This document shows, piece by piece, positions 10,143 through 24,048 of a DNA stretch of 50,601 nucleotides (the stretch's first letter is position 1; each line of letters opens with the position of its first letter). The notes beneath the pieces were generated by a model. That model saw nothing but the letters and a program-made list of their open reading frames with translations, was not told where the DNA came from and did no database searches. This DNA is from Actinocrinis puniceicyclus (lineage in GTDB: Bacteria > Actinomycetota > Actinomycetes > Streptomycetales > Catenulisporaceae): assembly GCF_018283645.1 (NCBI RefSeq), contig NZ_JAGSXH010000038.1:1-50601 (forward strand). Direction: 5' to 3'. The translations under genes and the position numbers were made by a program.

Positions 10143-12001
10143 CCGTTCTCCGCGCAGGCGGAGGTGATCCGATCGCGAACCCGGTCTACCGGCAACTGCC
10201 GCTCCGTTCTCCGCGCAGGCGGAGGTGATCCGGGCACCGCGCGCAAGCTGTGGCGCCGCACCAACCGTTCTCCGCGCAGGCGGAGGTGATCCGTCGGCCA
10301 GCGCGAGATACCGTGCCGTATTACACCGTTCTCCGCGCAGGCGGAGGTGATCCGGCGTATTGGAGCGGGTCCGGGACGACTTGGCTCCGTTCTCCGCGCA
10401 GGCGGAGGTGATCCGCCCGACCACACCAGTGCCGCGGCGAGCGCGGTCCGTTCTCCGCGCAGGCGGAGGTGATCCGGGGATCGCGGCGTTCGTTCAGCTC
10501 ACGATCAACCGTTCTCCGCGCAGGCGGAGGTGATCCGCCATGGCCGCGTTCGTCGAGGCGCGCCTCGACCCGTTCTCCGCGCAGGCGGAGGTGATCCGAC
10601 CTCGACGCGATCCTCGACGGCGGACTGCGCCCGTTCTCCGCGCAGGCGGAGGTGATCCGACCTCGCCGACCCGCAGTCGCACCGCGCGGGCCCGTTCTCC
10701 GCGCAGGCGGAGGTGATCCGTCGCCAGCGGCAGCGCGAGATCCGGCGCCCACCCGTTCTCCGCGCAGGCGGAGGTGATCCGGCGTTTAGGCGCTGGGTGA
10801 CGCATGAGGTGCTCCGTTCTCCGCGCAGGCGGAGGTGATCCGGACGTGTGGGTCGAGATCGGCCACCCCGTCTACCGTTCTCCGCGCAGGCGGAGGTGAT
10901 CCGCGGTAGGTGTGCCGGCCCGGGACCTGCGCGACCCGTTCTCCGCGCAGGCGGAGGTGATCCGTGGAGGTGAACGCCTCAATGATGCAGACCCCTCCGT
11001 TCTCCGCGCAGGCGGAGGTGATCCGTACTTCCACGGTTCAGTACCGTCCCCCAGGAGCCGTTCTCCGCGCAGGCGGAGGTGATCCGTTGCCAAGCGTCGC
11101 ACAGCCGCTAAGCGCGTGCCGTTCTCCGCGCAGGCGGAGGTGATCCGGCGGGAGTTCCGGGCCGGTCTCTTCGGGGGCCCCGTTCTCCGCGCAGGCGGAG
11201 GTGATCCGCTCTTCGATGGCGATCTGCCCGTCAGCGCGCTCCGTTCTCCGCGCAGGCGGAGGTGATCCGACGACCGGCAAGCCGAAGGTCGCGGCGCAGG
11301 GCCGTTCTCCGCGCAGGCGGAGGTGATCCGTCCGCCATCGCGCGGCGGACCGCGAGAAGTTCCCGTTCTCCGCGCAGGCGGAGGTGATCCGGAGCGCTGC
11401 GACACCCTGGTACGCCAAGCCCACCGTTCTCCGCGCAGGCGGAGGTGATCCGCCGGTGGCGTTGCCTGGTCGGTGCTCGGCACTCCGTTCTCCGCGCAGG
11501 CGGAGGTGATCCGTATCGGGGTGTCGGTGGGATGAGTTTCCTGGTCCGTTCTCCGCGCAGGCGGAGGTGATCCGTTTTGACCAGCGAGTGGAACACGGAC
11601 AGGTCCCCGTTCTCCGCGCAGGCGGAGGTGATCCGGTTGGTCCACGCACCCACATGCGGCCTGCGCACCGTTCTCCGCGCAGGCGGAGGTGATCCGGATG
11701 CAAAAGCCGCGCGTGCGCAGCGTGAAGCCCGTTCTCCGCGCAGGCGGAGGTGATCCGGTTGATCTATGGCCAAGGTGACCGTGTCCGACCCGTTCTCCGC
11801 GCAGGCGGAGGTGATCCGGACCGTCAGCTGCGCCAGGGCGTGCTCGCCCACCGTTCTCCGCGCAGGCGGAGGTGATCCCACGGCATGTTCAGCGAGAAAG
11901 CGACCGCGTTGCCGTTCTCCGCGCAGGCGGAGGTGATCCGCAGGCGTAGCGGCTGATTGCGTCAAACACCGCCCGTTCTCCGCGCAGGCGGAGGTGACCC
12001 G
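10143..12001 (+). CRISPR. CRISPR array 1, type I-E, 31 repeats
   Basis: 31 repeats of 29 bp with 30 spacers of 32 bp; the 61-bp period is exact from the first repeat (10143) to the last (11973). The repeat begins CCGTTCTCCGC, has GCAG in the loop, then GCGGAG and ends GTGATCCG, so CTCCGC/GCGGAG form the stem bound by Cas6e. The layout matches the E. coli type I-E repeat and implies that the crRNA 5' handle comes from the repeat's last 8 bases. Degenerate repeats are at the right end: the repeat at 11851 has a changed last base and the final repeat has GTGACCCG. So the leader is on the left and the oldest spacers are next to cas3. Spacer targets cannot be judged without a search. Confidence 0.98.
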
Positions 12002-12213
12002 GAGTGGGCAATCTGCGCGGGCCCGGCAGCACCGATCGCGAGACGTGAACCACATACAGATGTCTTGTGACGATCGGCTGAGGAGTCGTAATTTCCGTTA
12101 ATTCGCCACGGGCATCGTGAGGGCAGGCTACGCTGGGTCGCTCTATCAGGTGCCGTCGGTTATGACAGGGCATTTATTACTGGCATGATGATTGAGAGGC
12201 GAAAGGAGATTTG
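12002..12213 (+). promoter_or_regulatory. cas operon upstream region
   Basis: A 212-bp gap between array 1 and cas3. It is AT-richer than the genes around it (for example TAATTTCCGTTAATTC near 12090 and GCATTTATTACTGGCATGATG near 12170), consistent with a promoter for the cas operon. AAAGGAG at 12202-12208 is the ribosome binding site for cas3. I cannot name specific -35/-10 boxes with confidence. Confidence 0.45.
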
Positions 12214-15195
12214 GTGGGCGGCGCTCGAGCAGTGGAATCTGCGGACGATGAGGCCGGGAGTCGGGGCGACTTGGAAGTCGACGTTCGACTGTGGGGTAAG
12301 AGTGCTGATCAGGGATTGGCGCGGCCGTATCCGCTGATCTGTCATCTGCTCGATACCGCGGCGGTGGCGGGTGCCCTGCTCGATCTTACCGTCGGGCCTG
12401 AGCGCACGGCGCAGATGGCACGGACCGCGGGACTCGCCGGTGGTGACTTCAGGGCCCTGGTGATGTATTGGTCCGGGCTGCACGATCTGGGGAAGGTGAG
12501 TCCGTCATTCCAGGGGAAGGTTCCGGAGTTATACGCGCCGATCCGCAATGATCCGCGGTACGTTTCCGCGCCCGCTGTCGAGGCCGAGTTCCGGTTCCAT
12601 CACGGCGAGGCATCTCAACGGATCTTGGCGCATTTGTTCGCCGAGGACGGCTATGCCGTGCCGGGCGTCTACAGCGGGTTGTATGCGGATTCGATGGTTC
12701 CGGCGTGCGCTGCGCATCAGGTGGCGCAGATGCTCGGCGGCCATCATGGCAGGTTCCATCGCGCCCTGACAGTGCGGGACATCGAGCAGCCCTGGAGCCG
12801 TGAGCGCTTGGCGGTGCTCGGTTCAGGTGAGTGGACACGCCAGGCGCGTGCCCACGCGCAAGCGCTGCGCGCGTTGATCGGTCCGGCTGCGGGTATCGTT
12901 CCGGCCGGCCGCATTCCGGGCCAGCTGCTCGCGGTGTTGACCGGTCTGGTGGTCACCGCCGACTGGCTGGCAAGTCAGGAATCTTATATTTCGGCGGAGG
13001 GCAGGCTGCCGGAGTCTGACTGGTCGGGGCAGCCGGAGGAACTGTCGACGCACTGGCGTGCCGCAGTCAGGGACGCGATCGGCGTAGTGCGGGCGGCCGG
13101 GCTTGGACGGGCGTCATTCATGCCGGTTCCGGCGGGCGTCGAAGGGTTTCGTCGAAGGTTTCCGCGCATCGTCAACCCGAATCCGTTGCAGGCATCGCTC
13201 GCTGAGAAGCTGGCGGAGGTGGCGCGCGGTGTCGGGCTGTTGCTGATCACGGCTCCGCCTGGTGACGGCAAGACCGAGGCGGCCGAGTTCGCCGCCGCGC
13301 ACCTGGCGGCGGTCAGCGGTGCGGGAGGGCTGGCGTTCGCGTTGCCGACGATGGCGACGACGGACGCGATGTTTCGGCGCGTGCGCTCATTCGCGGCGGA
13401 CAACGTCGTACAGGGGTCGTCGTTGGCTCTCGTGCATGGCATGGCGTGGCTCAACACCGATTTCGAGCAACTGTCTCGTGACGCGGCCGGCGGATCCGCG
13501 GTGCTGGTCGGCAATGAGGCGGGCGGGTTCGAACCGTTCGCGACGGACTGGTTGCGGGGTCGGCGCCGGGGGTTGCACGCCAGTCTGGGCGCAATGACGA
13601 TCGATCAGCAGCTGGCTGGTGTGCTGCCGCTAAAACACAACATGCTGCGATTGTTCGGACTGAGCGGCAAAGTGGTCGTGATCGACGAGGCGCACAGCTA
13701 CGGGCCATACATGCATCAGCTACTTGTCCGGCTTTTGGAGTGGCTGGGTGCGATGCGCGTTCCCGTCGTGGTCATGTCGGCGACGCTGGCTGGTTCGACC
13801 GCCCGCTCAGTTCTGGAGGCATATCGGCGGGGCTGCGGCCATGGCGCGCTCGGGGCGGAGGGCGACTCGGTTCCGTATCCGGGATGGGTGTTTCTCGACG
13901 CGGACAGCGGGCGACTCGCGGACGCAGTAGGTGTCGGAACGGACCGGGCGCGGGCTCTAGACATCGTGACGAAGCAGGTGACCAGGCCGGACGAGCGTGA
14001 CAACACCGTGGCGCCGCAGCGGGCGCCGGGTGATCGGCTCGAGGTGCTGGGCGCGTTGCTTGATCCGATCCGTGTGGACGGCGGATGCGTTCTGGTGTGC
14101 TGCAACACTGTCGCGGAGGCTCAGGAGACGTACGAGTTTCTGCGGGCTCGGTTCCCGGACGAGGTGACTGTCGAGCTGTTGCATGCGCGTTTTCGGAGCA
14201 GGGATCGGGCGCGTATCACAGGGTGGTGCGAGCGTGCCTTCGGCAAGCCGGAGGCGGACGGCGGGGCCGCCGCTCGGCCGCGCAGGGCGATTCTGGTCGC
14301 GACGCAGATCGTGGAACAGTCGATCGACTTGGATTTCGACCTGGTGGTGAGCGATCTGGCGCCGTTGGCGTTGCTCTTCCAGCGTGCAGGGCGCTGTCGC
14401 CGGCACGAACGCGGTGCGCGTGCGGCGTGGACGGCAGGCTCTGCTGACGCGGCGAAGCTGATCGTGTTGGACCCCGTTAGTGCTGACGGCGGCTACGAAC
14501 AGCCAAAGCAGTGGGGAGCGGTGTACTTCGAGGCATTGTTGCGCAAAACCAGCAATCTGCTGCGGGAGTTGGCGGAGCAGCCTGTCGCCATTCCCGGCGA
14601 TGTGCAGCGGCTCATCGACGAGGTATACGCCGAGATCTTCACGGTCAAGCTGCGCGGTGCGTCGACGGCGGAAGCCAAGGCGTTCGCCGAGGCGCAGACG
14701 AAGCAGTTGGCCGTGCAGATCGCCGAGGCCCAGGCCGCGAAGTTCGTCGAGATTCCACCGCCGGCGAAGGTCAGGGACCTTTCCGTGCTCAGCGGCGCCG
14801 ATTCCGCTGGGCTGCTTTCCGACGCACATGAGGCGACTGCGACAACGCGGTTGGGTGCCGACAGCGCTCGCATAGTCCTGGCGTACGTGCACGCGGACGG
14901 ATCTCGCAGCCTGGATGGCGCGGGGCTGCTGTCGCTTCCCGAGACGACGAATTCTCGCAAAACCCTGCCGATCGAGCAGATCCGGAGAATCATGCAGTAT
15001 GTCGTTCCCGCACCGGGATATTGGCTGCGTCCGGGAGAACGGTACGGCGTCGCGCCGATGGGGTGGTCGGATCAGTCGCTGCTACGCGATCTCGTCGTCG
15101 TGGACGGCATGGCAACTGACGGAGAGGGATGGCGGTCCATTTCGACGAGTCCGGCGCTGGAATACAACGACGACATGGGCCTGCTGCGGCGGTGA
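12214..15195 (+). CDS. cas3: CRISPR-associated helicase-nuclease Cas3 (type I-E)
   Basis: A 993-residue Cas3, recruited by Cascade after R-loop formation to unwind and degrade target DNA. The HD nuclease domain is N-terminal: CHLLDTA near residue 45, HDLGK at H90-D91, FHHGE near residue 130 and GGHHGRFH near residue 176. The SF2 helicase follows: Walker A TAPPGDGKTEAAE near residue 346, DEAH in VVIDEAHSYGPY near 489, and motif VI-type QRAGRCRRHERG near 728. All catalytic signatures look intact. GTG at 12214 is preferred over TTG at 12211 because AGGAG lies 5 nt upstream of the GTG. First gene of an operon in the standard I-E order. Confidence 0.95.
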   Translation: MGGARAVESADDEAGSRGDLEVDVRLWGKSADQGLARPYPLICHLLDTAAVAGALLDLTVGPERTAQMARTAGLAGGDFRALVMYWSGLHDLGKVSPSFQGKVPELYAPIRNDPRYVSAPAVEAEFRFHHGEASQRILAHLFAEDGYAVPGVYSGLYADSMVPACAAHQVAQMLGGHHGRFHRALTVRDIEQPWSRERLAVLGSGEWTRQARAHAQALRALIGPAAGIVPAGRIPGQLLAVLTGLVVTADWLASQESYISAEGRLPESDWSGQPEELSTHWRAAVRDAIGVVRAAGLGRASFMPVPAGVEGFRRRFPRIVNPNPLQASLAEKLAEVARGVGLLLITAPPGDGKTEAAEFAAAHLAAVSGAGGLAFALPTMATTDAMFRRVRSFAADNVVQGSSLALVHGMAWLNTDFEQLSRDAAGGSAVLVGNEAGGFEPFATDWLRGRRRGLHASLGAMTIDQQLAGVLPLKHNMLRLFGLSGKVVVIDEAHSYGPYMHQLLVRLLEWLGAMRVPVVVMSATLAGSTARSVLEAYRRGCGHGALGAEGDSVPYPGWVFLDADSGRLADAVGVGTDRARALDIVTKQVTRPDERDNTVAPQRAPGDRLEVLGALLDPIRVDGGCVLVCCNTVAEAQETYEFLRARFPDEVTVELLHARFRSRDRARITGWCERAFGKPEADGGAAARPRRAILVATQIVEQSIDLDFDLVVSDLAPLALLFQRAGRCRRHERGARAAWTAGSADAAKLIVLDPVSADGGYEQPKQWGAVYFEALLRKTSNLLRELAEQPVAIPGDVQRLIDEVYAEIFTVKLRGASTAEAKAFAEAQTKQLAVQIAEAQAAKFVEIPPPAKVRDLSVLSGADSAGLLSDAHEATATTRLGADSARIVLAYVHADGSRSLDGAGLLSLPETTNSRKTLPIEQIRRIMQYVVPAPGYWLRPGERYGVAPMGWSDQSLLRDLVVVDGMATDGEGWRSISTSPALEYNDDMGLLRR

Positions 15196-15204
15196 CCGCT
15201 GCCT

Positions 15205-17391
15205 GTGCCATATCAACGCCGATACTGCGAGGGGGAGGTTGTGGACGCTGACGCTGGGGCCTCGGTGTTGACCGGCGACTGGGTGCCCGTCACCCTGCTC
15301 GACAGCGCGCCGGAGGCGATATCGGGCCGCTCTGCATTCGGGCTGCGTGAACTGCTGGAGTACGGGCCCTACATCGCTTCGCTCGCCGTCACGTCGCCCC
15401 CGGCGCTCTCAGCGCTTTACCGGGTCCTGTATGCGTTGGCGGCGCGCGTCACCCGGCTGGATCGGGAGCCTGAGGACGGCGAGGACTGGGAGCAAGCTCG
15501 CCTGGACATCCTGGTCGCAGGGCACTTCGACCCTTCAGCGCTGGATGAGTACTTCAATCGATACGCGGCGCGGTTTGGTTTGTTTGACCCGGCCCGGCCG
15601 TTCCTACAGGACCCGCGGCTGGCGGAGCAGTGCCAGAAGCGGGCTGGAGTGAACAAGCTCGCGGTGGGGCGCCCGGCGGGGAACAATCACAGCTGGTTCG
15701 GGCATCATCGCGACGAAGCCGCGTTGCCGGTGCCGAGGCGGCAGGCACTGCTGGATCTCCTGGTGTGGTTGTACTACGGGGCGTCGGGCAAGTGCTCGGC
15801 GCGTACCGTGCAGGGCCGGGCGGATTCGAACACGAAGGCCGGGCCGCTGCGCTCGGCCCTCTCGTACCATCCGGTCGGTGAGTCGCTGTTCGAGACGTTG
15901 ATCGCCGGGATACCGAACCCTGACGTTCGATATGAGGATCCGGATGACCCGTGCCCTTGGGAGCGCGAGGATCTGCCCGATCCACGGGGTCTGACGCAAG
16001 TGCGCGGGGTGTGTTCGTCGTTGACCGGTCGTGCTCAGCATGCCGTGCTGCTGGTGCCCGACGCGTCCGGGCACGACGTGGCCGATGCATACATCACCTG
16101 GGCGTACCGTGACGACGTCGCGGGCGACGTTCATGATCCGTACTTGATCTGGCAGCTGAGCAAGGCCGGAAACCTCTACGCGCGGCGTGCCGACGCGGGG
16201 CGGGCGCTGTGGCGCGATCTTGACGCGCTGGCGTTTCAGGAGACGGCGGATTCGAGTCAGATCCGCCAGCCCCCGGTGTTCGCGCATCTGCCGCGGTCCG
16301 GGTTCCGGGTGCAGGCGCTCGGATTCGATCAGGACGGCCAGGCAAAGGACACACAGTTCGTCGCGGGGCTCACTCCGCCGCAGTTCGACGCGGCGCGGCT
16401 GCGCGAGCAGGGGCAGAACCGGTTGCGGATCGCGTCGCTGCGCGAGGCCGGCGAGACGATGGGGTTTCGTTTGGAGCGATCGGCGAAGAAGGCGTGGGCC
16501 GAGTACGCGGGGGAGAAGATCGCCGACTGCGCCTGGTCACAGCAGGCCGCGGCGCGCTACTGGCCGGCCGCGGAGGAACTGTTCTGGCGGCGCATGGCCG
16601 CAGGAGCGTTCGACGGCGCGCGCCAGGCCTTCCGGTTGATCGCGGAGCCGATCTACGACGAGGTCACCCGCGCCGCCGCGGCTTCGCTGCGCGGTGCCAG
16701 AGCCGTGGAGATGGCCAGGTTCGAGCTCTACGGCGGCCTGCCGAAACAGTCCGCGCCGCCGAGACGAAGGGAGCCAACGGTGACACGGCCTGCAGTACCG
16801 GTGAGTGCGTCGCAACAACGGCGCCGCGATTTCATCGAGACAGTGATCAGGCGCTGCACTGATCCCCGCCATCCTGAAGCCCGCGCCGCACTGCGTGGCG
16901 CGTTGGGTAAGCGGTGGGATGCGATTCCTCACGGTGCGTATAAGTTCCTTGAGGACGCCGGGCTGCCTGAGTTCGGTAACGTGTGCGAACTGCACGCCCA
17001 TTACGCCGTCGCTGCGATGATCGCCGCTGTGCCGCGAAAGGTGGACCTGCGCTCCGCGCCGGACGCGTCATGGCGCTACGGCAGCGACATGGGCGTCTGT
17101 CTCGCCTCGGCCGTTGCAAGACAGGATCTGACCCTTGAGGCGGCTGAGGGCAAGCTGGATCTCCTGGTCAAGCAGAGCACTGCGGGCCTGCATCGCCATC
17201 TGCCCCCGGTCGCATTGCGCCTGGCCGCCCGTCCTGGAGCGGTCGACTGGGCCGCACTGCTGGCCGACCTCGCCGCGTGGGAGCGGGAGAGGAACACGAT
17301 CTCCCGCCGCTGGCTGCGCAGCTTCTACCGCACCCGGCTCTACGCGCAGCGCGAGGCGGCGCGAGCTGCCGACGGCGACCCGGCAGCGTGA
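15205..17391 (+). CDS. casA-casB: fused Cascade large and small subunits, Cas8e-Cas11 (Cse1-Cse2)
   Basis: One uninterrupted 728-residue frame encodes both Cse1/CasA (about residues 1-520) and Cse2/CasB (about 530-728), normally separate genes. The Cse1 part starts with GDWVPVTLL and continues with FGLRELLEY, HSWFGHH and PYLIWQL. It recognises the PAM and recruits Cas3. The Cse2 part carries LDLLVKQSTAGLHRHLPPV and ISRRWLRSFYRTRLY, typical of the small subunit. The join (residues 515-530) is Pro/Arg-rich. An internal AAGGGAG at 16767-16773 precedes an in-frame GTG at 16780, so free Cse2 may also be made. For the N-terminus, GTG at 15241, preceded by a G-rich tract, is an alternative start. 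It lies 9 bp after cas3. Confidence 0.9.
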   Translation: MPYQRRYCEGEVVDADAGASVLTGDWVPVTLLDSAPEAISGRSAFGLRELLEYGPYIASLAVTSPPALSALYRVLYALAARVTRLDREPEDGEDWEQARLDILVAGHFDPSALDEYFNRYAARFGLFDPARPFLQDPRLAEQCQKRAGVNKLAVGRPAGNNHSWFGHHRDEAALPVPRRQALLDLLVWLYYGASGKCSARTVQGRADSNTKAGPLRSALSYHPVGESLFETLIAGIPNPDVRYEDPDDPCPWEREDLPDPRGLTQVRGVCSSLTGRAQHAVLLVPDASGHDVADAYITWAYRDDVAGDVHDPYLIWQLSKAGNLYARRADAGRALWRDLDALAFQETADSSQIRQPPVFAHLPRSGFRVQALGFDQDGQAKDTQFVAGLTPPQFDAARLREQGQNRLRIASLREAGETMGFRLERSAKKAWAEYAGEKIADCAWSQQAAARYWPAAEELFWRRMAAGAFDGARQAFRLIAEPIYDEVTRAAAASLRGARAVEMARFELYGGLPKQSAPPRRREPTVTRPAVPVSASQQRRRDFIETVIRRCTDPRHPEARAALRGALGKRWDAIPHGAYKFLEDAGLPEFGNVCELHAHYAVAAMIAAVPRKVDLRSAPDASWRYGSDMGVCLASAVARQDLTLEAAEGKLDLLVKQSTAGLHRHLPPVALRLAARPGAVDWAALLADLAAWERERNTISRRWLRSFYRTRLYAQREAARAADGDPAA
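16780..17391 (+). CDS. casB: possible internally initiated Cas11 (Cse2/CasB)
   Basis: Nested in the 3' end of the fused gene and in the same frame (codon 526). GTG at 16780 is preceded by AAGGGAG at 16767-16773 with 6 nt spacing, as good a ribosome binding site as those of the independent genes here. The product would be 203 residues, a normal Cse2 length, starting MTRPAVPVSASQQRRRDF and running straight into the conserved Cse2 helices. In E. coli Cascade there are two Cse2 per Cse1, so free Cse2 would restore a stoichiometry that a pure fusion could not provide. Initiation here is inferred from sequence, not shown. Confidence 0.5.
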   Translation: MTRPAVPVSASQQRRRDFIETVIRRCTDPRHPEARAALRGALGKRWDAIPHGAYKFLEDAGLPEFGNVCELHAHYAVAAMIAAVPRKVDLRSAPDASWRYGSDMGVCLASAVARQDLTLEAAEGKLDLLVKQSTAGLHRHLPPVALRLAARPGAVDWAALLADLAAWERERNTISRRWLRSFYRTRLYAQREAARAADGDPAA

Positions 17392-17437: not shown

Positions 17438-18622
17438 ATGACCCGGTCGACAGCAGGCCGTTTCATCGACCTGCACGTGGTGCAGGCTGTCCCGTTCGCC
17501 AATCTCAACCGTGACGACACCAACTCCGTCAAGACCGTGCAGTTCGGCGCAGTCAATCGGACGCGGGTGAGCAGCCAGTGCTGGAAGCGAGCGATCCGCC
17601 TGGAGATCCAGCGCACCCTGGGTGAGAGAGCGTTGCGTACGCGTCGGGTTGCGGAACGGCTCGCCGAGCACTTGCGCGAGCAGCGTGGCTGGCCGGAGAA
17701 GCTTGCGTGGCGTGCGGGGGTGTACACGGTCGTGGCCAGCAGTATCGGGGCTGAGCCGCCGAAGAAGCCCGAGGACGCAGACCGCGATGACGTGCCCTGG
17801 GGCACCAAGGCGATGGTGTACATTCCGGACAGTGCGATCGCGAGCCTCGGCGAGATCGCCGAGCGGCACCGCGCGGCGCTGGAGGCAGCCGCGGATAAGC
17901 CCGACCCGAAAGCCAAGCAACCCCTGTTGCCGACCGACGAGATCGACGAAATCCTTCGCTCGACCAACGGAATCATCAACCTGCTCGGACGGATGCTCGC
18001 GGAACTCGACCGCGCGAAGGTTGATGGTGCGGTCCAGGTGGCACACGTGATGACCACACACGAGACCGACGGGGAGATCGACTACTTCTCAGCGGTCGAC
18101 GACGTGACCGCCGAGTGGCGCGACTCCTCCGGCAGCGCCCACATGGGTCATGCCGAATACAGCGCCGGGACCTTCTACCGGTACGCGACCCTCGACCTGG
18201 CCGATCTGCTGCGCAATCTGAAAGACGATCAGGATGCGGCCCGTAAGCTGGCCGATGCGTTCCTGACCGCGGCGATCCTCTCGCTGCCGCAGGCGAAGAA
18301 GAACTCCACCGCTCCGCACACCTTCCCGGACCTGATCGCCGTGAGTGTGCGCTCTGATCGGCCGTACTCCTACGCCGCCGCGTTCGAGCAGCCGGTCGCC
18401 GCCGGGCCGGACGGCGGGTTCACCGGGCCGTCCATCGACGCACTCGACGAGTACGCCGGGGCGCTGGCCGCGCTGCTTGGCCGGCGCACTGCCGTCTACA
18501 ACGGCCACGCCGGGATCGGCGCCAAAGACCTCGAACATCTCGGTGAGCGCGCCGAATCGATCGACGAGCTGATCGCGGCGGCGCTGGACGCCGCGCTCGC
18601 CCCCGTACCGGAGACGGCGTGA
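17438..18622 (+). CDS. casC: Cascade backbone protein Cas7e (Cse4/CasC)
   Basis: A 394-residue Cas7 of type I-E, which polymerises along the crRNA to form the Cascade backbone. The N-terminus FIDLHVVQAVPFANLNRDDTNSVKTVQFGAVNRTRVSSQ is highly characteristic of the family; the Asn/Arg segment lies near the RNA-binding surface. Further typical parts are AHVMTTHETDGEIDYFSAVDD near residue 205 and HMGHAEYSAGTFYRYATLDL near 235. Length is normal. It starts at an ATG 46 bp after the fused gene and overlaps cas5e by 4 bp (GTGA). Confidence 0.95.
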   Translation: MTRSTAGRFIDLHVVQAVPFANLNRDDTNSVKTVQFGAVNRTRVSSQCWKRAIRLEIQRTLGERALRTRRVAERLAEHLREQRGWPEKLAWRAGVYTVVASSIGAEPPKKPEDADRDDVPWGTKAMVYIPDSAIASLGEIAERHRAALEAAADKPDPKAKQPLLPTDEIDEILRSTNGIINLLGRMLAELDRAKVDGAVQVAHVMTTHETDGEIDYFSAVDDVTAEWRDSSGSAHMGHAEYSAGTFYRYATLDLADLLRNLKDDQDAARKLADAFLTAAILSLPQAKKNSTAPHTFPDLIAVSVRSDRPYSYAAAFEQPVAAGPDGGFTGPSIDALDEYAGALAALLGRRTAVYNGHAGIGAKDLEHLGERAESIDELIAAALDAALAPVPETA

Positions 18623-19485
18623 ACCCGGAGGACCGGTACCCCGGCCTGCTGCTGCACTTGTCAGGGCCCTTGCAGTCTTATGGTGAGCGCTCCCGGTTCA
18701 CCGAACGCGACACCGCTCGCTTCCCCACCCGGTCCGCTGTGATCGGTTTGATCGCGGCTGCGCTGGGCCGGGAACGCACCGAGCCGCTTGACGATCTGCG
18801 CCCGCTGAGGATCGCCGTGCGCGTCGACCGGCCAGGTACGCTGCTGCGCGACTTCCACACCGTCGGCGGTGGCCAGACGAACAAGTTGACCGTCGTGACG
18901 GCAGAGGGCAAGCGGCGCCCCGGAGACACCGGCACGCTCGTCTCGCACCGCTACTACGTGCAGGACGCGGCTTTTACCGTGGCCGTCACCTGCGAGGCAG
19001 CGGAGATAGATACGGACACCGACGTCCAGCGTTTACTCGACCGATGCCATCGGGCACTGCTGGAGCCGCGCTGGCCGCCCTACCTCGGCCGTCGCTCGTG
19101 CCCGCCCGCCGGACCAACGTTGCTCGCCGCCAGTCCGAACGCTTGGCACGACCTGGTCGAACTGCCCGTACATGACGACGCCGCCCGACTCAAGCGCGAC
19201 CGCGACCAGGCCGGAGACCGGATCAGGGTCGTCTTCTATGCCGACCAGACGCTTGACGCGCTGCCCGTCCCGGCGGACTGCGCGATCGACGGACTCGAGT
19301 CCACCAGTACGGTCAACGACGAACCGGTCTCCTTCGCAACGCTCGACCGACGCTACCTGGGACGAGCCCTGCACTCCCGGGCGATCTCGATGCCCGTCAG
19401 CAGGCTCGGCGGCCTGGGTACCCGATATGTCAACACAATTAGAAATTACTGTGCCGTCCTCGCCGGCGAGGAGAACCGTCGATGA
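18619..19485 (+). CDS. casD: Cascade subunit Cas5e (CasD)
   Basis: A 288-residue RAMP-fold subunit that binds the crRNA 5' handle and contacts Cas8e. The family N-terminus is evident: LLLHLSGPLQSYGERSRF then RDTARFPTRSAVIGLIAAAL, and DFHTVGGGQTNK near residue 80. The C-terminal segment SRAISMPVSRLGGLGTRYVN is also typical. GTG start within the cas7e stop (4-bp overlap), and its stop overlaps the cas6e ATG by 4 bp, so translation is coupled. No sign of damage. Confidence 0.93.
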   Translation: MNPEDRYPGLLLHLSGPLQSYGERSRFTERDTARFPTRSAVIGLIAAALGRERTEPLDDLRPLRIAVRVDRPGTLLRDFHTVGGGQTNKLTVVTAEGKRRPGDTGTLVSHRYYVQDAAFTVAVTCEAAEIDTDTDVQRLLDRCHRALLEPRWPPYLGRRSCPPAGPTLLAASPNAWHDLVELPVHDDAARLKRDRDQAGDRIRVVFYADQTLDALPVPADCAIDGLESTSTVNDEPVSFATLDRRYLGRALHSRAISMPVSRLGGLGTRYVNTIRNYCAVLAGEENRR

Positions 19486-20135
19486 CCACCTGGCTGTCCG
19501 TGCTCACTCCCGACCGGCGGCGACCGCAGGCCGCAGCGGACCTCGCGGAGGCGGACCGGCTGCACCGCCGGATCATGCAACTGTTCCCCGCCGGCCTGGG
19601 CGAGCGGCCGCGCCATGGAAGTGGCGTGCTCTTCCGGGTCGACGAGGAGCCATCCAATGTCAATGTGCTGTTGCAGAGCGGCATCGAGCCCGAGCCGGGC
19701 CGCCTGCCGGACGGGTACGCGCATGTCAGGGTTCGCACGCTTGACCCGCTGCTTGACGCGCTGCGGCCTGGTTTGCCTGTGCGCTACCGGCTGGTCGCCA
19801 ACGCGACCCGCAAGCTGGGCCGCAACACCAAGCAGGGCGAGCCGCTGACCGTCGTGCCGCTGCACGGAGCGGACGCCGAGGCGTGGTGGGCGCGTAAGGC
19901 GCAGGAGGCCGGCCTGGAAGTTCGGACGCTGAGCATGACCCCACTCGCGCCGGCGCTCGGCAAGAGAGCCCCGGGACGGGCCGGCGGTCAGGGTCCGGTA
20001 CCCCACGCGCGCACGTGCTTCGATGGCACGGCGCAGATCCTCGACGCGGACCGGCTGCGTGCCGCGCTGCTCGGCGGTATCGGCCGCGCCAAGTCGTACG
20101 GCTGCGGCCTGTTGACCATCGCACCGGGCCGATGA
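19482..20135 (+). CDS. casE: crRNA-processing endoribonuclease Cas6e (CasE)
   Basis: A 217-residue Cas6e that cuts the repeat stem-loop to make crRNA and stays bound to the 3' hairpin. The N-terminal LHRRIMQLFP places a histidine at residue 28, the expected position of the catalytic His in this family. The C-terminal glycine-rich loop GGIGRAKSYGCGLLTI near residues 198-213 is the RAMP signature for RNA binding. Its substrate here would be the shared repeat of both arrays. It overlaps cas5e and cas1 by 4 bp on each side. Confidence 0.93.
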   Translation: MTTWLSVLTPDRRRPQAAADLAEADRLHRRIMQLFPAGLGERPRHGSGVLFRVDEEPSNVNVLLQSGIEPEPGRLPDGYAHVRVRTLDPLLDALRPGLPVRYRLVANATRKLGRNTKQGEPLTVVPLHGADAEAWWARKAQEAGLEVRTLSMTPLAPALGKRAPGRAGGQGPVPHARTCFDGTAQILDADRLRAALLGGIGRAKSYGCGLLTIAPGR

Positions 20136-21148
20136 GCGAGCAGCCCAAGGCGCTCAGCCAGCAAGATGCGCGCCGCCGCATCGCGGTGCCGACCGCCGCG
20201 ATGCTCCCGCGCATCGGAGAGAGCCTTTCCTTCCTCTTCCTGGACATGATGCGGATCATCCAGGACGACACGGGTCTGATCGCGTTCCCTGCGCAGCCCG
20301 CGCCCAACCGGCGACTACGCATACCCACCGCTGCGCTCAGCTGCCTGTTGCTCGGCCCGGGAACCTCGATCACCGCCCCGGCGCTGTCCACGCTGGCCCG
20401 CAACGGCACCACCGTGGTGTGCACCGGCGCGGGCACAGTGCGCTGTTACGCGGGCATCACCGCCCCCGGCCAGAGCAGCAAATGGCTCGAGGCGCAGGCC
20501 GGCGCGTGGGCCGATCCGGAGCGGCGGCTGGCCGTGGCCACCCGCATGTACGAACAGCGCTTCGGTCAGGGAGTGCCGTCTGGCACCAGCATCGCGCAAC
20601 TGCGCGGACTGGAGGGCCAGCGGATGAAGGCGCACTACCGCCTGCTGGCCCAACGCCACCGTGTGCAACCGTTCAAGCGCTCCTACGACCCGGAGGACTG
20701 GGACGGCCAGGACCCGGTCAACCTCGCGCTGTCTGCGGCGAACACCTGTCTGTACGGCATCACCCATGCCGCGATCATCGTGCTGGGCTGCTCACCCGGC
20801 CTCGGCTTCGTACACACCGGCACCACGCACTCGTTCGTGTACGACGTCGCGGACCTGTACAAGGCGGAGTTGACCCTGCCGCTCGCTTTCGCCCTGCACG
20901 CCAGCGAACAGCCGGAAGCCGAGGCCCGCCGTGCCTTTCGCCACCGGCTCAAGTTGTTTCGACTCATGCCCCGTATCGTGCGCGACATCCAAACACTCCT
21001 CGACCCGACCCAGGCCGATCCGCAACAGGCGGAAGATGGGCCGGAACTCGACGATGTGCAAGTTGTACACCTGTGGGACCCCGCCGCGGGAACCGTGCCG
21101 GGTGGCGTCAACTACGCCGCGGGTGAGGACACGCCGTGGCTAGCCTGA
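20132..21148 (+). CDS. cas1: spacer integrase Cas1 (type I-E)
   Basis: A 338-residue Cas1 integrase. The metal-binding residues are all identifiable: E161 in LRGLEGQRMKAHY, H228 in GFVHTGTTHSFVYD, and D238 and D241 ten and thirteen residues later, the same spacing as in E. coli Cas1. Start at the ATG at 20132, overlapping the cas6e stop; a longer frame from 20015 runs through cas6e and is not used. The 3' end overlaps cas2 by 13 bp. With both Cas1 and Cas2 intact, the system looks capable of acquiring spacers. Confidence 0.95.
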   Translation: MSEQPKALSQQDARRRIAVPTAAMLPRIGESLSFLFLDMMRIIQDDTGLIAFPAQPAPNRRLRIPTAALSCLLLGPGTSITAPALSTLARNGTTVVCTGAGTVRCYAGITAPGQSSKWLEAQAGAWADPERRLAVATRMYEQRFGQGVPSGTSIAQLRGLEGQRMKAHYRLLAQRHRVQPFKRSYDPEDWDGQDPVNLALSAANTCLYGITHAAIIVLGCSPGLGFVHTGTTHSFVYDVADLYKAELTLPLAFALHASEQPEAEARRAFRHRLKLFRLMPRIVRDIQTLLDPTQADPQQAEDGPELDDVQVVHLWDPAAGTVPGGVNYAAGEDTPWLA

Positions 21149-21453
21149 CCGTGATCAGCACCACGGCGGTCCCTCCGCACGTACGCGGAGCGTTGAGCAG
21201 ATGGATGATCGAACCGACTCCGGGCCTTTATGTCGGAACTCTGTCGAAGAAGGTCCGCGACGAACTGTGGGCAGTTGTGGCGGCCTCCGTGCAGGACGGG
21301 GCAGCCGTGCTGATTCAGCCGGCCGACAACGAACAGCGTTTCGCCATCGCCACTGCCGGAGAACGCCGCCGAACCCCGATCGATCTCGACGGCCTGACGC
21401 TGATCGCGCTCAACCCCGCCGAACCGGATAACGAATCGGCAACGTCCGTATAA
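21136..21453 (+). CDS. cas2: CRISPR-associated Cas2e
   Basis: A 105-residue Cas2 of the type I-E (CasCD) family, forming the integrase complex with Cas1. The N-terminus SLTVISTTAVPPHVRGALSRWMIEPTPG and GLYVGTLSKKVRDELWAVV are typical. GTG start inside the cas1 3' end. The last seven codons and the TAA stop are also part of the 41-bp segment similar to the leader of array 1. So the coding end appears to double as the leader of array 2, whose first repeat starts only 18 bp after the stop. Confidence 0.93.
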   Translation: MASLTVISTTAVPPHVRGALSRWMIEPTPGLYVGTLSKKVRDELWAVVAASVQDGAAVLIQPADNEQRFAIATAGERRRTPIDLDGLTLIALNPAEPDNESATSV

Positions 21454-21471: not shown

Positions 21472-23999
21472 CCGTTCTCCGCGCAGGCGGAGGTGATCCG
21501 CCCAACACCCCGGTCGTGTTCACCAACCCCGCCCGTTCTCCGCGCAGGCGGAGGTGATCCGTACGGCACCGCGTCCCGGGCCATGGCCGTCGTCCGTTCT
21601 CCGCGCAGGCGGAGGTGATCCGCTTTACGGCCCGGACGTCTACTAGACGCTGAGCCGTTCTCCGCGCAGGCGGAGGTGATCCGCTGGCCTTCTCGACCAG
21701 CTTCTTGGCCTGAGACCGTTCTCCGCGCAGGCGGAGGTGATCCGACCGCGTACGAGGTCGCGTCCGACCTCGCGCACCGTTCTCCGCGCAGGCGGAGGTG
21801 ATCCGTGCTGCCACCAGCTCGCCGGGGCCTCGAACCGCCGTTCTCCGCGCAGGCGGAGGTGATCCGCGCTACGACTCGCCCACGCGGCCGGGGACCGGCC
21901 GTTCTCCGCGCAGGCGGAGGTGATCCGGTGGAGCGCGCCAACCGCAACAGCGGCGGCCACCGTTCTCCGCGCAGGCGGAGGTGATCCGCCGACAACGGGC
22001 CGACATCCACACCCGTCGGCCCGTTCTCCGCGCAGGCGGAGGTGATCCGACCGCTGACATCCGATCGCACACCTTTCCGAACCGTTCTCCGCGCAGGCGG
22101 AGGTGATCCGGTCAGCGCGGTCATCTGCCCGCGGGATCAGGTCCGTTCTCCGCGCAGGCGGAGGTGATCCGCGGGCAGTGATGGGCACCCACTACCCGCC
22201 CGGCCGTTCTCCGCGCAGGCGGAGGTGATCCGGTTCCAACACCTTGAATTCCTGCTCTATCTCGCCGTTCTCCGCGCAGGCGGAGGTGATCCGCACGGTT
22301 CCGGCGCCGGAACCGACGGTTTCACCCGTTCTCCACGCAGGCGGAGGTGATCCGCTCTCCCAATCGTTTAAACGGCTTGTGAGCGCCCGTTCTCCGCGCA
22401 GGCGGAGGTGATCCGACAGATGGGTCCGCCGGTCCGGTTAAGGCAAACCGTTCTCCGCGCAGGCGGAGGTGATCCGACACGGTTTGAGGCTCTGATCTCC
22501 GCTATTCACCGTTCTCCGCGCAGGCGGAGGTGATCCGCGAGCGCCACGCTCGACAGCACCGGATCGGCCCCGTTCTCCGCGCAGGCGGAGGTGATCCGCC
22601 GAAGGTAGAGCGTACCGGCCGTGCGAATTGCCGTTCTCCGCGCAGGCGGAGGTGATCCGCGGCACGAACACGGACCCCACGGTCCTGTTCCCCGTTCTCC
22701 GCGCAGGCGGAGGTGATCCGTGGGCGGCCGACCCGCGCTGCCGGGTGAGTTACCGTTCTCCGCGCAGGCGGAGGTGATCCGGTCTGATCGTCGCGCCGGA
22801 CGTAGGTCGCTGCCCGTTCTCCGCGCAGGCGGAGGTGATCCGTTGCGGGTCTCGCCGACCACCGTGAACCCGTTCCGTTCTCCGCGCAGGCGGAGGTGAT
22901 CCGTACGAGATTCCGGCGGTGACCAGGGCGATTGCCCGTTCTCCGCGCAGGCGGAGGTGATCCGGGTGTCGGTGTTTTCTTCATCTCGCAGAGTGCCCGT
23001 TCTCCGCGCAGGCGGAGGTGATCCGGGCCGTGAAGAAACTCGACTGGTCGGCGGTGACCGTTCTCCGCGCAGGCGGAGGTGATCCGGCTCCGAGCGCTCC
23101 CCCGCCGGCCGCGCCTGCCCGTTCTCCGCGCAGGCGGAGGTGATCCGTGATGTTCGCGAGCCCGCCCGTGGTCGCCGGCCCGTTCTCCGCGCAGGCGGAG
23201 GTGATCCGGCCGGGTGCAAGCCCGGCGGCGTGGTCCTAGACCGTTCTCCGCGCAGGCGGAGGTGATCCGCGCGCAAGCTGATGCGGCTTGTCTATTCGAT
23301 CCCGTTCTCCGCGCAGGCGGAGGTGATCCGTCGAGCGGCTCGCGCAACTCGCCGCAGGGGTGCCGTTCTCCGCGCAGGCGGAGGTGATCCGGAATCGATG
23401 GCGGCGCGCCACCGGACGTGGGGCCGTTCTCCGCGCAGGCGGAGGTGATCCGGCTTCGGCCGCGACGTACGCAACTGGATCGCCCCGTTCTCCGCGCAGG
23501 CGGAGGTGATCCGCCGTGCGCTACGAGATCGGCGCGTCCGGCCGCCCGTTCTCCGCGCAGGCGGAGGTGATCCGACGGCGCTCGGGCAGGTCAGGGACGC
23601 GGGTATCCGTTCTCCGCGCAGGCGGAGGTGATCCGACGGCGCTCGGGCAGGTCAGGGACGCGGGTATCCGTTCTCCGCGCAGGCGGAGGTGATCCGGGTC
23701 TGACGTTCTCGCCGCCCGCCAACCAGGACCGTTCTCCGCAGGCGGAGGTGATCCGCTGCGGTTGTGGTCCGCCCTCGGTACGACCCTCCGTTCTCCGCGC
23801 AGGCGGAGGTGATCCGCCGCGCAGCTCGAGCCGCGCCAGGATGTCGGCCCGTTCTCCGCACAGGCGGAGGTGATCCGACCGAAGAGCACCCCTCACCGGG
23901 GCAGGCCACCCGTTCTCCGCGCAGGCGGAGGTGAGCCGGGCGCCGCGGCCACCGTCACCGGCAGCGACGGCCGTTCTCCGCGCAGGCGGAGGTGATCCG
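21472..23999 (+). CRISPR. CRISPR array 2, type I-E, 42 repeats
   Basis: 42 repeats of the same 29-bp sequence as array 1 and 41 spacers, all 32 bp where checked. The period is 61 bp except for one 27-bp repeat at 23729-23755 that lost two bases. Other variants are CCACGC at 22326, GCACAGG at 23849 and GTGAGCCG at 23910. Most variants cluster at the right end, consistent with the leader at the left, beside cas2. The spacers at 23575-23606 and 23636-23667 are identical, so one repeat-spacer unit has been duplicated. Array 2 is longer than array 1. Both arrays should be processed by the single Cas6e. Confidence 0.98.
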
Positions 24000-24048
24000 C
24001 TGCGCTCCTATCTCTGTCGACGACTAGTGAAAACTGACCCCCAGGCAA

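Follow-up and report, generated by a model that had tools for sequence, protein, structure and literature searches.

The type I-E CRISPR (clustered regularly interspaced short palindromic repeats) locus of the soil actinomycete Actinocrinis puniceicyclus carries cse1 (cas8e) and cse2 (cas11), which encode the large and small subunits of Cascade, as one continuous open frame. This gene is probably a nested pair that gives both a Cse1-Cse2 fusion and a free Cse2, with both products built into Cascade. The fused frame occupies positions 15205-17391 on the forward strand of the stretch that we analyzed, the 50,601 nucleotides of contig NZ_JAGSXH010000038.1 (assembly GCF_018283645.1; hereafter, the window). 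The strongest evidence comes from comparing this frame with similar fusions in other actinomycetes, as the pattern of in-frame start codons at the junction between the two domains, taken over 14 fusions, is far beyond chance.

The frame runs for 728 codons (728 aa) without an internal stop, and the profiles of both domains are complete within it, in agreement with the original prediction that Cse1 and Cse2 share a single frame. The Cse1 part matches TIGR02547 at residues 22-517 (8e-66) and PF09481 at residues 22-472, while the Cse2 part matches PF09485 at residues 559-708, spanning positions 1-137 of the 137 in the profile (5e-14). The AlphaFold2 model contains two confident domains, with the last Cse1 helix ending at residue 509 and the first Cse2 helix starting from residue 535, and these domains match solved Cse1 and solved Cse2 structures over nearly their full lengths. 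Up to the end of that last helix, the Cse1 domain (15241-16731, forward strand) matches Thermobifida fusca Cse1 (5u07_C) with a Z of 39, and the nested cse2 matches solved Cse2 chains with a Z of 13-16; by sequence, the closest solved relatives of the two domains are also T. fusca Cse1 and Cse2. The fusion's true start is probably the GTG at 15241-15243 (codon 13), rather than the GTG at 15205, as it follows the Shine-Dalgarno (SD) sequence GAGGGGGAGG, whose SD energy of -10.7 is the best in the frame.

Residues 515-529 (16747-16791, forward strand) form an interdomain joint where the predicted local distance difference test score of the model falls below 50, and the joint is therefore predicted to be flexible. 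It is here that an SD-like AAGGGAG (16767-16773) is followed, after 6 nt, by an in-frame GTG at 16780, at exactly the positions and spacing that had been claimed. This GTG is codon 526, inside the low-confidence joint, which bears out its placement at the domain junction. It would open a complete Cse2 on the forward strand (16780-17391; 203 aa and a stop codon) that covers the whole PF09485 profile.

With the Cse2 profile and the fusion as queries, we surveyed plasmids and about 1,800 genomes of actinomycetes, of which some were sampled repeatedly, and checked the resulting long frames with local Cse1 and Cse2 profiles. At least 13 further Cse1-Cse2 fusions were found in Actinomycetota, a lower bound since the full check covered Cse2 matches in frames of at least about 530 aa. 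They are located in the genomes G009, G006, G670, G454, G770, G881, G1247, G1353, G1368, G1412, G1426 and G1304, and on plasmid pcz of Streptomyces sp. WA1-19, where casA is annotated as an 814-aa Cse1 and cas7e lies directly downstream. A long open frame around Cse2 was rejected as proof of fusion by itself, as most such frames are overlapping frames in these GC-rich genomes.

Near the N-terminus of Cse2, all 14 fusions contain an in-frame start codon (ATG, GTG or TTG), and in 11 of them this junction start is located 28-36 codons before the AALR motif, inside the range found for split cse2 genes. Examples include AAGGAGGAGGTCAAG-GTG (G009), CAGGAGGCACAG-ATG (G454), CTGGAGGCCACC-GTG (G670), GAGGGAGACCGCCCGA-ATG (G881), GGAGAGACGAG-ATG (G1353) and GGGAGACCGAGC-ATG (G1368). 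We scored each start by combining its SD interaction, the unfolding of local structure and its start codon. According to this initiation score, the junction start is the best in-frame start in 10 of the 14 frames and the second best in two, and 12 of the 14 junction scores are no worse than the upper quartile of split-gene cse2 starts (median 6.25, quartiles 3.7-8.9). When the same selection rule was applied to stretches of the Cse1 body, 10 of the 14 genes had no equal stretch; these stretches overlap, which makes a combined P value too small, and the count is the safer statement. Synonymous recoding of the flanks worsens the score at the junction, with a median P of 0.043; for 221 control starts taken from these genes the median is 0.60 (Mann-Whitney, 5e-7). 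Out-of-frame starts in the same joints score less well (Mann-Whitney, 2e-6). The expectation that the internal site would recur in other fusions was therefore borne out, with initiation signals that are mostly missing from body regions and from synonymous recodings of the same genes.

On a tree of Cse1, fused genes are interspersed with split genes; parsimony requires about nine changes between the two states, and the 14 fusions fall into about nine lineages. Three groups of fused genes appear (G454/G670/G881, G1412/G1426/G1304 and G1353/G1368), and the nearest neighbors of most other fusions are split genes. Within the groups, the start is kept despite varying linkers: it is GTG, ATG and ATG in G670, G454 and G881, respectively, and ATG throughout G1353/G1368 and G1412/G1426/G1304. 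Among the matches listed for G009, G006, G670, G770 and G881, there is no second cse2 besides the fused gene, so that free Cse2 could come only from the fused gene in these genomes. In G006 and G1247, actinomycetes of different families, Cas3 also shares the frame with Cse1 and Cse2; these frames have 1856 codons (L069, G006:C6, minus strand) and 1754 codons (L132, G1247:C48). A strong SD-GTG, AGAGGGGGGAGGACT-GTG (codon 1071), is also present at the Cas3/Cse1 joint of G006. Separately, many Streptomyces type I-E loci have two tandem Cse2 domains in one open frame (L119 in G635:C20; also G602, G629, G457, G026, G787, G957, G882, G878, G964, G752, G877, G807, G719 and G791), which is perhaps another way of giving Cascade two copies.

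The GTG at 16780, taken alone within the window gene, is above chance only weakly to moderately. None of the other in-frame starts, among 40, is as free of pairing, and recoding with synonymous codons gives a worse score in about 97% of cases (P = 0.03); its flank has the rare arginine codons AGA and AGG (3% and 6% of the arginine codons in the cas genes). It ranks fourth of 41 in-frame starts by SD energy, and the SD match alone (P = 0.15) was too weak to serve as evidence for this gene. Codon 533, another GTG at the junction, is also among the better-scoring in-frame starts, as is the region of the upstream start.

We infer that ribosomes use the internal start and that Cascade takes up both products of the gene. 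Ribosomes starting at the upstream GTG would produce the Cse1-Cse2 fusion of about 80 kDa, while other ribosomes, starting at the internal SD-GTG of 16780, would produce free Cse2 (about 22 kDa). The assembled Cascade would then contain one Cse1 with its tethered Cse2, and the free Cse2 would fill the remaining small-subunit place. In the Escherichia coli Cascade, a single Cse1 is accompanied by two Cse2 (PMC11899642), and one tethered copy with one free copy would therefore fit.

Several observations weigh against this proposal. Compared with stretches of equal size from the Cse1 part of the gene, the window site has a P of 0.155; its score of 14.9 falls beyond the quartile range of real cse2 starts and ranks fifth of 40, and it is one of the weakest two sites among the 14 fusions, together with that of G1247. 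The initiation score is itself simplified, with an anti-SD sequence taken from general knowledge. The termination-reinitiation that is available to split, overlapping pairs is ruled out in the fusion because it has no stop codon between the domains. Free Cse2 might also be supplied by another, distant type I-E locus of the host (G000:C424, about 13053-15167; L073, L002), in which cse1 and cse2 are split and cse2 is preceded by a strong SD. Lastly, the Cas11 of the E. coli type I-E system has been reported as redundant for silencing and plasmid interference (PMC12235044), and a free Cse2 copy may therefore be unneeded.

The same redundancy, and the modest strength of the window site on its own, would suit a gene whose sole product is the fusion, where the internal SD-GTG is an unused remnant of the old cse2 start and one tethered Cse2 is enough for Cascade to function. 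We consider this unlikely, as a remnant is expected to decay, whereas three fused groups, of which two are long-branched, have retained the start, and a nucleotide-level bias is present at the junctions over the 14 fusions. It is less probable still that a protease cuts the flexible joint, in which case separate Cse1 and Cse2 proteins would carry out the function and the internal start would contribute little. The predicted disorder of the joint is consistent with such cutting, but the joint sequences are unlike one another, and proteolysis does not account for the signals at the start codon, whether in the SD, in accessibility or in synonymous codon choice.

An error in sequencing or assembly, masking a stop codon or a frameshift in a normal split pair, is the least probable explanation, at a very low level. 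The genome is a draft of 430 contigs and a one-base change of frame separates the window's junction, AAGGGAGCCAACG-GTGA, from that of its split relative G007, AAGGAGTCCAC-GTGA. However, the change is located outside any long homopolymer, and the at least 13 other fusions include ones in single-contig genomes and the 814-aa casA on a complete plasmid (NZ_CP085040.1). A gene that encodes both the fusion and a free Cse2 remains the preferred interpretation.

The comparison with G007 also suggests how the fusion may have arisen. In G007, the TGA of the GTGA ends cse1; in the window, the GTG of the GTGA is in the cse1 frame. Across 84 split junctions, half are 4-nt overlaps and 54 are within 8 nt. 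Judging from these two sequences, a one-base frame change at a 4-nt overlap would most simply have fused the genes while leaving the SD and the start codon in place. The original prediction that the old cse2 start was kept is supported, while the loss of a stop codon between adjacent genes is the less simple route, as split relatives mostly lack a spaced stop. An NTGA at the fused start was rejected as a trace of the old overlap; it is not specific, as 84% of split cse2 starts read NTGA.

The rest of the locus is that of a type I-E system, with all genes on the forward strand. The fused gene is preceded by cas3 (12391-15195) and followed by cas7e (17438-18622), cas5e (18619-19485), cas6e (19482-20135), cas1e (20132-21148) and cas2e (21136-21453). 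One CRISPR array of 31 repeats is located upstream (10145-12005) and another of 42 repeats downstream (21474-24005), both with a period of 61 nt and distinct spacers; the downstream array has a single repeat interval of 59, the others being 61. This full set of cas genes, placed between arrays with distinct spacers, suggests a working type I-E system. The locus has the signature Cas8e, the clustered cas3, cas7e, cas5e, cas6e, cas1e and cas2e, and the adjacent arrays of 61-nt period. A separate Cse2 (Cas11e) gene is a usual, non-signature feature of type I-E; here, Cse2 is in one frame with Cse1, and no other cse2 is present beside the fused gene at this locus. The fused gene is a variant inside type I-E.

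Some type I systems encode Cas11 as a separate gene and others through an internal start, and how this difference came about has been stated as unknown (PMC10212523). We lean toward the view that type I-E Cas11 has repeatedly passed from a separate gene to one nested in cas8e, with selection keeping the inner ribosome start, and that Cas3-Cse1-Cse2 became one frame in two lineages, with start signals at both joints in G006. If true, this is a case in which the passage from one mode of encoding Cas11 to the other, among type I systems, can be traced directly. The type I-E fusions can be compared with their split relatives, and consequently both the step itself and the selection maintaining the internal start are directly testable. 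There is also a practical consequence: moving only the annotated fusion protein to another host, for example one with eukaryotic translation, could lose the free Cas11.

Compared with the canonical type I-E Cascade of E. coli and T. fusca (5u07), the window locus has the same gene set, gene order and domain folds, and differs in that Cse1 and Cse2, separate genes in the canonical systems, form one frame. Natural type I-E Cas3-Cse1 fusions are known (PMC3890593); they also join adjoining type I-E genes, but a different pair, and G006 and G1247 combine both kinds as Cas3-Cse1-Cse2. The accessible part of the 2025 classification describes type I-E systems with a fused subunit, I-E2 (Cas5-HNH) and I-E3 (nuclease-Cas11), which add a nuclease, unlike the Cse1-Cse2 fusion, and that part does not name a Cse1-Cse2 fusion alongside them (PMC12669027). 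We found no Cse1-Cse2 fusion in the searchable literature, where type I-E has a separate Cas11 gene, though most subscription papers lie outside such a search and this absence is not proof. In types I-B, I-C and I-D, Cas11 has been shown to come from an internal start (PMC11899642, PMC7684278, PMC10212523). The resemblance to these systems that had been proposed holds for the arrangement: an in-frame start with a ribosome-binding site is located inside the large-subunit gene, at the domain border, the C-terminal part is the small subunit, and the site recurs in relatives. It does not extend to the protein family, as the large subunit here is Cse1, and not Cas8b, Cas8c or Cas10d. The Cse1-Cse2 fusion would resemble the Cas11 of types I-B, I-C and I-D in its working without being a member of that group, its nested state having been reached repeatedly from separate genes and not by descent.
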